Source: a virus
Direction: 5' to 3' (one strand)
DNA: 20,289 nucleotides
IMG/VR virus record: IMGVR_UViG_3300030060_005700
Location: 1 to 20,289 of that record
Part shown: positions 3,413-14,526 of the stretch, in pieces
Layout of the letters: each line of letters starts with the position of its first letter
Position numbering within the stretch: the stretch's first letter is position 1
The notes under the pieces: generated by a model
Told to the model about the DNA's origin: nothing
The model's database searches: none
Seen by the model: the letters and a program-made list of their open reading frames with translations, nothing else
Made by a program: the position numbers and the translations under genes

Positions 3413-3545
3413 TAAGGAGCTTCGGAGCGTAGCGGAGAGCGGGCTGCAAGCCCATACAGAGTGAGGCGGAGCCGAATCCTGTTCTTACCTGCGAGTAGCA
3501 AGCGAAGCGAGCTATGGGTTACTGCGAGGAGCGAAGCGACGGGTT
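3413..3545. repeat. GC-rich degenerate repeats (GCGAAGCGA units) in gene-free gap
   Basis: This is part of the 312-bp gap 3281-3592, which has no supportable gene. Two imperfect copies lie in tandem: 3485-3520 and 3519-3545, both of the form TTAC(C)TGCGAG…GCGAAGCGA…GGGTT. To their left, 3413-3476 holds related GGAGC/GCGGA words, a small hairpin GGGCT/AGCCC (3441-3453) and distant TTCGG/CCGAA arms (3421-3425, 3472-3476). The base composition is richer in G+C than the flanks. The role is unknown. Confidence 0.45.
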
Positions 3546-3920: not shown

Positions 3921-3948
3921 GTGCATATTCCGAAGGAATAATATGCAC
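3921..3948. other. Hairpin upstream of the 95-aa gene
   Basis: GTGCATATTCC (3921-3931) pairs with GGAATAATATGCAC (3935-3948) except for a 3-nt bulge. It sits about 40 nt before the ATG of the minus-strand 95-aa gene and could be part of its leader or an operator-like dyad. No T-tract follows. Confidence 0.45.
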
Positions 3949-4061: not shown

Positions 4062-4125
4062 CGGATCTATTAGTAGCAACTAGTATGCGATACCCCCTAT
4101 GGCCCCCGGGATTCAGCAACCAGCT

Positions 4126-4152
4126 ATAATAGAAAGGCCATTCTGCTATCAA
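4126..4152 (-). promoter_or_regulatory. Candidate leftward promoter for the 95-aa gene
   Basis: On the minus strand, TTGATA (plus 4147-4152) and TATTAT (plus 4126-4131) resemble sigma-70 -35 and -10 boxes, but the spacer is 15 nt, shorter than the usual 17. It would give a long (about 240-nt) leader to the 95-aa gene, passing the palindrome and the 3921-3948 hairpin. This is a weak, motif-only call. Confidence 0.25.
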
Positions 4153-4183
4153 AATTTTTGTTTGTGCCACTTCGTTCCATCTT

Positions 4184-4419
4184 GTACCATTTGACGTGGT
4201 ACGGCTAACGCTATATACAACAACGATTTACAGCCAATGTACCAGTTGTACCAGTTGTTTCCCATTTCTCTTACTATATATACAAACCCCTTTACTTTTT
4301 AAAAAGTATGGTACATATGGTACAAAAATCTACAAATGCTTATATAACAGGGGTTTAGGACGTACCACACGTCACCCACGAGCATGGTACGTCCCGGTAC
4401 AAGGTGGTACACATGTACC
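4184..4419. repeat. GGTAC iteron cluster, candidate replication origin
   Basis: Eleven copies of GTACC/GGTAC lie within 236 bp: 4184, 4198, 4239, 4248, 4310, 4319, 4362, 4386, 4396, 4406 and 4415 (start positions). Two tandem 9-mer pairs stand out. TGTACCAGT occurs twice (4238-4255) and TATGGTACA twice (4307-4324), in opposite orientation. Between them is an AT-rich stretch (CTATATATACAAA) and a perfect 16-bp palindrome TACTTTTTAAAAAGTA (4293-4308). Iterons flanking an easily melted segment beside a replicative helicase gene is the usual layout of phage and plasmid origins. A regulatory cluster for a repressor is the main alternative. Confidence 0.55.
4358..4394. repeat. 9-bp inverted repeat GGACGTACC/GGTACGTCC
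   Basis: GGACGTACC (4358-4366) and GGTACGTCC (4386-4394) are perfect inverted copies separated by 19 nt, each containing one GGTAC core. They start about 40 nt beyond the helicase stop codon. They could form a hairpin in the helicase transcript, but there is no T-tract. More likely they are paired protein-binding sites in the iteron cluster. Confidence 0.5.
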
Positions 4420-4436: not shown

Positions 4437-5834
4437 CTAGTCAATACGGCTCTTGAGCGTTAAACCCTTGATTCCTCGATTGCCACCGCCACCTAATCTA
4501 GCTCTTTGTAAGTCCCAAGCTGAATCTTGAATCAACCTGTAAACCAATTGAGCCTTACTTAATGGCGATGTTCTTAGCCCTTTGCTCCAATCTTTCCAAT
4601 TGGCATAGGCCACATCAGAAGAAACAAAGCCACCGGGATTAGGACTAAAACAAGCTGATAGGAACTCATCCATAGGGTTGTTAATAGTGTGGTATTCATC
4701 AATAAGAGCATTTGAGTGTTCCGGCATAGGGAACTTCTTCTTGGGATCTTCTTCACTCTCAACAATACATGCTCCTTGATAGGCCCAGAAGGCAATACCC
4801 TCTAGTTCGGCCATTAGTTTTTCGGACAAACGGTAGTCTTCCCTACCCGCAAAGCTAGTGTTGAAAGGGATTAACACCATTTTGCCGGACAATCCAAGCC
4901 CCTTATTGGGCAATTTAGGGATCTCATTGGACTGCATTATTGGGATAGCATCAATAACCACATTGCGGATGGGTGCTTCGTATTTTCGATTAATGGATAT
5001 AGGGTCTTTACCTACTATCGACTTAATAACCCTACAAGCAGCCTCTCCCTCTCGGTTAGAAACCTCAGATACCTCATTAATTGCCATTACTTTTGCGTGT
5101 TCAATACCCCAAAGACCAAACTGACCAGCAATATCTTCAAGGCAAGTACCCATATAACCCTCTCCAAGCAGGGCTTTGAGTACATTCATGATGGTTCCTT
5201 TACCCCCACGTATCTTTCCATACAGCAAAAACCACTTTGCGTACTCTCTATGGGAGATTAATGAGTACCCGAACATCCTCTGCAACAGATTGCACCAAGC
5301 AGTATCCCCTCCCGACCACTCCTCAAGACACTTGTGCCACAAAGGACATTCTGCAGAAGGGTTAAAGTTTACAGGAAGGACATAGGGGTCAAAGAAAGTA
5401 TCGTCCCTATCAAACTTGTCCTTACCATCGCAATCAACAATCTTGTCTTGGAAGGAAACAAGGGTTCTGCAACTCTTGGTTTTAGGGGCAGAAAGCCAAA
5501 CAGGAGCTTTATCTTGAGGAAGAGTCTGTAATGCCTGCAATGCACGCACCACTCCTTGGATCTTCTGTATGTTAGGAGCGTACCTAGAAGCGACTGTTCC
5601 ATTCTGAGTAGTTTGCTGGTAAGTTAAATTCTCAAGAGCTACCCAAAGTGAACTTTCGATCCACTCAATATCTCTTTTTTTCCACTCTTCTCCGTACCAT
5701 TCGTAAAAGTTTCCTCGCCAATACTGTAATCCGTTTCGATTATTAGGAGTAGAGAACCTAGTTCTTAAAAGATGGCGAGCGACTTGCATTGGCTCGGCTG
5801 ACGCTAAAGTGGGTGACTGCGTCCCGTTAGTCAT
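4437..5834 (-). CDS. SF3 (D5-like) replicative helicase / primase-associated ATPase
   Basis: 465 aa. An N-terminal D5_N-like region (about 1-190) precedes an SF3 helicase core. Motifs seen are Walker A GKIRGGKGT (206-214), a Walker B-like AKVMAINEVSE (247-257) and motif C IPIMQSNEIPKLP (297-309), followed by KMVLIPFNTSF. This is the P4/D5-type phage and plasmid helicase arrangement, which unwinds DNA at the origin as a hexamer. The GGKGT variant, with Gly where Ser/Thr is usual, recurs in phage D5-type helicases. There is no primase (AEP/Toprim) domain in this protein, so priming must come from elsewhere. The start ATG at 5834 follows GGAG at 7 nt. It diverges from the late module with only 21 bp between, and the GGTAC cluster lies just beyond its stop. 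Confidence 0.92.
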   Translation of the reverse strand: MTNGTQSPTLASAEPMQVARHLLRTRFSTPNNRNGLQYWRGNFYEWYGEEWKKRDIEWIESSLWVALENLTYQQTTQNGTVASRYAPNIQKIQGVVRALQALQTLPQDKAPVWLSAPKTKSCRTLVSFQDKIVDCDGKDKFDRDDTFFDPYVLPVNFNPSAECPLWHKCLEEWSGGDTAWCNLLQRMFGYSLISHREYAKWFLLYGKIRGGKGTIMNVLKALLGEGYMGTCLEDIAGQFGLWGIEHAKVMAINEVSEVSNREGEAACRVIKSIVGKDPISINRKYEAPIRNVVIDAIPIMQSNEIPKLPNKGLGLSGKMVLIPFNTSFAGREDYRLSEKLMAELEGIAFWAYQGACIVESEEDPKKKFPMPEHSNALIDEYHTINNPMDEFLSACFSPNPGGFVSSDVAYANWKDWSKGLRTSPLSKAQLVYRLIQDSAWDLQRARLGGGGNRGIKGLTLKSRID

Positions 5835-5855
5835 GGAAAATCTCCAAAGGTGTTA
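5835..5855. promoter_or_regulatory. Divergent start region with back-to-back ribosome binding sites
   Basis: The whole gap between the divergent helicase (ATG 5834, minus) and the first late gene (ATG 5856, plus) is 21 bp. CTCC at 5842-5845 is the minus-strand GGAG site, and AAAGG at 5846-5850 is the plus-strand site; the two abut. No room remains for either promoter, so transcription starts must lie within the opposing coding sequences, giving antisense-overlapping 5' leaders. Confidence 0.7.
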
Positions 5856-12927: not shown

Positions 12928-14526
12928 ATGGCTACTACTGGCTCAATTTTTGATACTGAGGCCAATCGAATCGAAGAGGTTCTCAGTAAACAAATCGACA
13001 CCATGCTTCCTACTATGGACCCAGCATGGCGAGATACTGTTATCACATCACAAGGTGTTGGATCACCTAGTGAATTTTCTAAGGATCTTCAAGTCAACAA
13101 ACTCTTCCGTGGCGGTGTCACGGGTGTAATTGATGGCGGTGGACCTGCTGGCGACTGGTCAATTTACGGAACCGCTGGTTCTACACTTGGCAAGAAGCTG
13201 CGACTTGATGGAACTGCTGCTGCATTCCCTGATGCTCTCGAAGGTGCAAAGCAAGCAACTTATAAGATGACAGTTCCAATGAAGGCACTGCATACTAACC
13301 TTGCTCTTTCACTTGCTGAAATGCAAATGGATGCTACTCCTGCTGTTGTAGATCAAGTTATTGCTCCTACACTTCAAGGTTTCGCACAGAACCTTTCGCA
13401 CACTCTTTGTAACTACTGGTACGTAAGCCAGAACGATAGTTACATGCTTGATGAAGTAGTAAGTAGATCAGCTCCTGATGATACTGATGCTCCCGGTGGT
13501 ACTAATCCAGCGTCTGCATTTGTATCAAGTGTTATTACCCTTAAAGGTAAGTTGACTGATCGATTTAATGTTGGTCAACGTGTCGATGTTGTGTCAGCAA
13601 ATGGTGGTGATCGTCGTAACTCCGCTGGTGATGATGCAACAGGTACTCGTATTAACTGCTGGGTTAATGCCGTTGATGATATCAAGGGTACAGTTGAGCT
13701 TATCAGTGATGACAATGCTAGTTATAACGGTGACACTAGCTGGATGATCGACATTGCTGCAACCGATAGAATCGTTCTTGCTAACAGTGGTCTTCCTCAA
13801 GCCGGTGCTGCTGCTTCAGCTTATAGCGGTATTGCTGGTATTAACTCATGGCTTAAGGGTGGCGACGGAAACGGTTCTACCGTTAATAACGCTAACACTC
13901 TTCTTGGTACTGAGTCAATTACTGGTGCTGCAATTAATGTTAATGATCACCCTGAATTTAAATCATTCTTCAAGGGTTCTGTAGGTGCATTAACTGAAGG
14001 CAAACTCCGTAAGTATGTTCGACGTTTCCATGCTGCTAAGGGTAAGTATGGCATGTCAATGGACTGCTTGATTGCTAGTGACGGTGTTTGGCTGTCTTAC
14101 GAAGCACAGAAGGTTGGTCAATACATTATTGATCGAACTAATGGTCTTTCTAGCCTTAATTCACAAGGTTCAGAAGACGGCTTCAATTTCTACTTTGAAG
14201 GTCGTAACTATAAGGGTTACACTTCTAACTATGTAGATTCTGGTGTTGTTTACGGAATTAAGAAGTCTGGTAACAACTGGAAGCGATACGTTGCTCCTGA
14301 TTACTCCGGTCTTACTTCAATGGGTGAAGCTCCTTCACACGTACCATTCCGATTCGTTATGCCTGCACTTACCGGAACTAACTCCGCTAAGTTCCCACTT
14401 CTCGCCTCCGGCGCTGTTACCGAACAGGTACAAATGCCCGGTATGCTTCGTATGCAATTGATCCCAGATCAAGCTGCTGGTATGAAGCTCTCAGGTTGCG
14501 ATGTTGATGTAGAGTATGGCGACTGA
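12928..14526 (+). CDS. Major capsid protein
   Basis: 532 aa, presumably an HK97-fold shell protein. Assignment rests on position after the scaffold, the large size, a sequence rich in Gly/Ala/Asn/Ser typical of shell proteins, and recognisable segments such as KMTVPMKALHTNLALSLAEM (113-132) and FAQNLSHTLCNYWYVSQNDS (152-171). Residues about 200-288 look like a separate beta-rich insertion (FNVGQRVDVVS, VNAVDDIKGTVELIS, TDRIVLANSG), as seen in P22-like and related coats. The start ATG at 12928 follows GAGGTGA at about 5-6 nt. The gene is followed by a strong terminator, as expected for a highly expressed product. The coding region is visibly less AT-rich than the neighbouring small genes. Confidence 0.92.
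   Translation: MATTGSIFDTEANRIEEVLSKQIDTMLPTMDPAWRDTVITSQGVGSPSEFSKDLQVNKLFRGGVTGVIDGGGPAGDWSIYGTAGSTLGKKLRLDGTAAAFPDALEGAKQATYKMTVPMKALHTNLALSLAEMQMDATPAVVDQVIAPTLQGFAQNLSHTLCNYWYVSQNDSYMLDEVVSRSAPDDTDAPGGTNPASAFVSSVITLKGKLTDRFNVGQRVDVVSANGGDRRNSAGDDATGTRINCWVNAVDDIKGTVELISDDNASYNGDTSWMIDIAATDRIVLANSGLPQAGAAASAYSGIAGINSWLKGGDGNGSTVNNANTLLGTESITGAAINVNDHPEFKSFFKGSVGALTEGKLRKYVRRFHAAKGKYGMSMDCLIASDGVWLSYEAQKVGQYIIDRTNGLSSLNSQGSEDGFNFYFEGRNYKGYTSNYVDSGVVYGIKKSGNNWKRYVAPDYSGLTSMGEAPSHVPFRFVMPALTGTNSAKFPLLASGAVTEQVQMPGMLRMQLIPDQAAGMKLSGCDVDVEYGD

Follow-up and report, generated by a model that had tools for sequence, protein, structure and literature searches.

A dense array of short repeats lies in the 556-bp intergenic stretch behind a helicase gene in virus record IMGVR_UViG_3300030060_005700 (20.3 kb, referred to as a whole as the window), which raises the question of what this locus does for the phage. 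A preliminary description proposed it as a candidate replication origin. We conclude that the array is very probably the cis-acting replication origin of the phage, bound by the adjacent SF3/D5 helicase through an RFX-like winged helix, a reading that conservation of the array beside the helicases of relatives supports. All eleven GGTAC/GTACC cores described within 4184-4419 were located (at 4184, 4198, 4239, 4248, 4310, 4319, 4362, 4386, 4396, 4406, and 4415), and their density of 11 per 240 bp is far above expectation; 100 dinucleotide-shuffled versions of the window had maxima averaging 2.84 and never above 5. The mirrored tandem 9-mers noted earlier are exact and facing, and the arms at 4238-4253 and 4309-4324 are 88% complementary and 55 nt apart. 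The array does adjoin the SF3 helicase gene as described, although it lies 3' of this minus-strand gene and not upstream of it. Its parts are as follows.

4184..4419, iteron array and candidate origin, with 11 GTACC/GGTAC cores.
4362..4419, block A, five cores just 3' of the helicase stop codon.
4358..4394, minus strand, hairpin within block A, with 10-bp perfect arms and a fold z-score of -4.2.
4307..4324, block B, tandem pair of two TATGGTACA copies with a period of 9 bp.
4256..4306, AT-rich gap and candidate unwinding region between the inverted tandem pairs, holding most of the palindrome at 4293-4308.
4238..4255, block B', inverted tandem pair of two TGTACCAGT copies with a period of 9 bp.
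4184..4202, block C, two more cores.

The first core is ~18 nt past the helicase stop codon, and the most AT-rich 50-mer of the array region (78% AT) begins inside block B and extends into the gap. The 16-bp palindrome TACTTTTTAAAAAGTA is present at 4293-4308 as previously noted, but we reject it as a melting element of the origin; it is absent as a conserved feature in relatives and is therefore probably incidental to the AT-rich gap, which is common to most of them.

Searching IMG/VR with this helicase and its alignments gave 17 contigs from uncultured phages, with helicases 62-76% identical; one further relative was found in a Myxococcales metagenome-assembled genome, and the genome-collection scan yielded one relative, L023. 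Together with 12 relatives, the window makes up a comparison set of 13 distinct loci. An iteron array lies directly 3' of the SF3/D5 helicase gene in all 13, and a search for the same spaced array beside relatives' SF3 helicases, proposed in the preliminary description, succeeded in every relative examined. In the shared order, sites behind the stop codon are followed by two tandem sites, then by a gap and by inverted sites, which mostly form tandems of two or three; between one and three further sites and a conserved box complete the series, and the tandem spacing is 9 bp in nearly all loci. Some loci have degenerate individual cores, such that counts of exact cores vary. The most AT-rich 50-mer overlaps or adjoins the gap in 11 of the 13.

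The array is also nearly unique within these genomes. The closed 54-kb relative G001, which has 127-bp identical ends, contains a single repeat cluster and no tandem pair elsewhere, and the same is true of G002, G004, G005, and the window; G003 is exceptional in having two isolated tandem pairs outside its array. The SF3 helicase is the sole conserved neighbour. With the exception of one pair, the first downstream open reading frames (ORFs) show no homology among the relatives' loci, and the array therefore goes with the helicase and not with the 95-aa protein encoded downstream of it in the window. No Rep family match was found among the subset of window ORFs tested, and at the DNA level the phage collection yielded no match to the array region. 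In three relatives (L006, L017, and L018) terminator-like hairpins with T tracts are positioned after the helicase stop codon and ahead of block B, much as a terminator separates alpha from crr in phage P4.

The features of the helicase relevant to the array are listed here.

4437..5834, minus strand, SF3 (D5/P4-family) helicase gene, 465 aa, stand-alone, without a detectable primase domain.
4440..4682, minus strand, C-terminal winged-helix domain, predicted to bind the iterons, residues 385-465 (81 residues).
4482..4493, minus strand, wing tip GGGG, residues 448-451, placed by alignment and model.

By curated domain cut-offs the protein is a P4/D5-family SF3 helicase, as it matches TIGR01613 primase_Cterm (the P4-family primase C-terminal domain) with 143.7 bits, passing the cut-off of 108.7, and Pfam DUF5906 above cut-off (E 1.5e-11). 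PHROG 'DNA primase' families are matched mostly over C-terminal halves, and the nearest sequence relative in the PDB is 7ola (E 7e-13). The core of the full-length AlphaFold2 model is too poor (mean predicted local distance difference test score, pLDDT, of 60), and so only the winged helix was used structurally. This domain was modelled with a pLDDT of 89.1 and a predicted template modelling score (pTM) of 0.79, and Foldseek returned the DNA-binding domains of RFX5 and RFX1 as its best matches (TM 0.63-0.65, E ~2e-3). RFX1 is also the best sequence match of the domain, though a weak one (E 0.16), and among the 13 family members Pfam Pox_D5 is found in all and RFX_DNA_binding in eight (best E 0.0024), with weak scores. 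A winged-helix fold is thus present at the helicase C-terminus in the model, and we predict that it serves as the origin-binding domain. RFX1 contacts the DNA major groove through strands and wing W1 (PMC8998557). The vaccinia D5 helicase likewise has a C-terminal domain whose best, albeit weak, structural match is RFX1, but there the DNA-contacting helix is not oriented in the same way (PMC9611036). At its other end, the helicase gene starts within 16 bp of a divergent gene on the opposite strand (5834-5850), leaving no space for ordinary promoters between them; in G001 the two ORFs overlap by ~60 bp.

Changes in the iterons are accompanied by changes in the wing. Two relatives, G005 and L066, have GACC arrays instead of GTACC with the layout unchanged, and they are the only two of the 13 loci in which the wing is altered (GGGG to [ST]KRT), its sequence being GTKRTRG or GSKRTRG, compared with GGGGKRG, GNGGKRG, KNGGARG, GKGGSRG, and GGGGNRG at GTACC loci. 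No mismatched combination of wing and array occurs among the 13. Over codons 1-395, G005 clusters with the GTACC loci L014 and L017 and is not the sister of L066. An approximately unbiased test of G005/L066 sisterhood over these codons gives p = 0.0035 for DNA and p = 0.052 for protein, with the qualifications that the grouping was picked because of the arrays and that two of the DNA rows have unusual base composition. From ~codon 430 through the array, by contrast, G005 and L066 are 69-87% identical, versus about 41-66% for comparisons with other loci. From these alignments, the wing and array look like a single recombined cassette.

The same coupling recurs in a second, distant family, composed of full-length primase-helicases akin to the one in Acidithiobacillus phage AcaML1. 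The cores of L088 and L094 are 94% identical whereas their C-terminal tails are only 54% identical, and their iterons are TGACGG and TGAAGG respectively; the DNA between the array arms remains alike despite the iteron difference. Across three AcaML1-like elements (L088, L094, and L099) the C-terminal domain and the origin sites 3' of the primase-helicase gene switch on a near-constant helicase core. We regard the chances as evenly balanced that P4/D5-family phage initiators read their iterons mainly by the RFX-like wing, with wing plus array constituting a swappable specificity cassette.

The most probable mechanism is that the SF3/D5 helicase loads itself, with its C-terminal winged helix on the GTACC iterons. 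With the two tandem pairs in opposite orientations, a pair of helicase rings would come to sit facing each other on either side of the AT-rich gap and would melt it, such that replication starts there.

The sequence comparisons and the model establish the array, its conserved layout and place, its near uniqueness in the genome, the winged-helix domain, and the joint change of wing and iterons; helicase binding, melting, and initiation at the array are inferred. Several observations weigh against this interpretation. The AT maximum lies outside the gap in two relatives, G001 and L006, and the co-inheritance of wing and array could partly be linkage, because the wing codons abut the array and linkage alone could carry the two together. 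Cumulative GC skew, a check suggested at the outset, goes against an origin here, in that the curve of the closed relative G001 is nearly monotone with no inflection at the array; local skew in the window itself switches sign near 4.1 kb, and relatives do not repeat the switch. As skew follows gene orientation in these phages it is a weak and uninformative test, and we dropped it as an origin marker. There is no primase domain in the helicase, nor was Toprim_3 or Prim-Pol found in the records of five relatives. The early genes of the relative G002 encode a DNA polymerase A, a uracil-DNA glycosylase (UDG)-like protein, a PD-(D/E)XK nuclease, and a Sak4-like protein, and no primase was found among them; the family polymerase finds no support as a TV-Pol-type primase and matches ordinary polymerase A families. 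The absence of a fused primase does not exclude membership of the P4/D5 family, since stand-alone helicases such as Cch2 exist within it.

The equivalent 3' array in phage P4 is itself a point against an origin at this position, as it is the crr, a region required in cis, and replication begins at a second array. The array described here could likewise be an accessory region that is bound by the helicase and needed in cis, with synthesis starting elsewhere. P4 crr is in the same place (3' of alpha and past a terminator) and has the same tandem 9-bp inverted layout, with ori ~4.7 kb off. However, P4 ori bears the same repeats as crr, and no second cluster was found in the window or in five relatives, the isolated pairs of G003 aside; moreover, the 3' array is the origin in phage-inducible chromosomal islands (PICIs) (PMC6092414). 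We therefore consider an accessory role unlikely. The chief doubt concerns the start site of synthesis, which would be either the array or, following the P4 pattern, another locus; that no second repeat cluster was found favours the array.

A role in transcription seems more doubtful still. The array sits between two genes of the same direction with a promoter-like match in the gap, as might be expected of an operator for a repressor or activator, such as the 95-aa protein, or for a helicase that autoregulates the flanking genes. Promoter-like matches are not in excess, though (2 versus 1.5 in shuffles), the array is 3' of the helicase gene and not at its promoter, the downstream ORFs vary among relatives, and the repeats change together with the helicase wing. 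Least probable of all, and in our view very improbable, is a structural element such as a terminator or regulatory RNA following the helicase gene, or a site for packaging or recombination. The strong block A hairpin and the terminator-like hairpins of three relatives are compatible with this, but the hairpin accounts for block A only, while blocks B, B', and C show the period and orientation of protein sites; there is no Rfam match in the window, and the P4 annotation shows that a terminator and a cis replication region can occur together.

Beyond block C, two further elements belong to the best-conserved DNA in this region.

4132..4154, minus strand, conserved box TTTTGATAGCAGAATGGCCTTTC, one copy per genome, with invariant TTTTGATA and the pattern TTTTGATA..GG..CTTTC.
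4101..4107, minus strand, conserved GGGGGCC element, ~46 nt past the box, which might pair with the box.

The box ends the array order in 13/13 loci and is found once per long contig when up to two mismatches are allowed. As a conserved RNA or DNA hairpin, the box and G-rich element would form 7 pairs, with no compensatory double change. They are candidates for a promoter, a priming site, or a host-factor site. A general phage promoter is not favoured for the box, which is present as a single copy per genome and has no consistent -10 partner by eye. Elsewhere in the window, dense GCGAAGCGA/GAGCG-type short repeats occupy 3419-3545 between two small minus-strand ORFs, and beyond them there is a hairpin, GTGCATATT...AATATGCAC, at 3921-3948.

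Similar sites accompany SF3 genes in some isolated phages. Twenty such phages were selected to be diverse, prior to any inspection of their 3' regions; nine of them have an inverted pair no more than 300 bp from the SF3 stop codon, with a score reached by at most 0.4% of 224 controls, a rough comparison as the control windows are mostly coding. The 9-bp tandem period is seen also in AcaML1, Mycobacterium phage Sunflower1121, and most of the distant IMG/VR loci; some other phages have a tandem period of 10 or 11. Because similar inverted sites follow SF3 genes in nine of the 20, a simple rule for finding origins in many phages is suggested. If wing and array do form a cassette, many SF3 phages would have origins predictable from sequence, in the form of short sites in an inverted pair, often repeated in tandem at 9 bp, directly following the gene; this would contradict the statement confining such origin organisation to PICIs. 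The natural specificity switches (GTACC to GACC, and TGACGG to TGAAGG) each come with a matching protein change, and the recognition code of P4/D5-type initiators is therefore directly testable. The window encodes its own large terminase along with a series of large ORFs ordered as in a structural module, and relatives reach 45-54 kb. Neither the large terminase nor the 532-aa structural-module ORF (12928-14526) has a match among 50,697 phage records, and the probable origin is thus placed in a phage group for which these two genes lack database matches.

Among known systems, the phage P4 alpha protein with crr/ori (type 1 repeats) is similar in having a P4-family helicase with a C-terminal winged helix and iterons just 3' of its gene, behind a terminator, and at crr tandem repeats 9 bp apart face inverted repeats across an A/T-rich gap. 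P4 differs in that alpha has a fused primase, there are two arrays (crr and ori), and the repeat is TGTTCACC as opposed to GTACC. In PICIs, including Staphylococcus aureus pathogenicity islands (SaPIs), the origin directly follows rep and has an AT-rich region with an iteron set on each side (PMC6092414). In the window and all relatives the iterons are likewise immediately 3' of the initiator gene, and blocks B and B' flank an AT-rich gap here, although no AT maximum is found there in G001 and L006. The Streptococcus satellite Javan96 has similar inverted sites 3' of its primase gene, as judged by eye. Unlike these satellites, which depend on virion proteins of a helper phage, the phage represented by the window encodes its own terminase, and relatives have their own DNA polymerase A.

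The putative pRN1 / BIP-1 origin also directly follows the gene of an SF3 replication protein that carries a C-terminal winged helix (PMC4234260). In pRN1 it is described as a single long stem-loop (~100 nt) without iterons, and the window does not have an origin of this type, containing instead short iterons and short paired sites with a gap of ~50 nt and a modest overall fold (z-score of -2.3). The nearest biochemical precedent is Cch2 of the staphylococcal cassette chromosome mec (SCCmec), a stand-alone D5-type helicase with no fused primase, which uses its C-terminal domain to bind short (5-nt) iterons lying just past the end of its own gene (PMC7581432). Cch2 works with CCPol-MP and has three iterons, compared with the eleven cores in the window. 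This kind of origin is therefore already known from P4 crr, the PICI/SaPI ori, and SCCmec Cch2, and what is new here is its presence in a phage group without a detectable primase domain.
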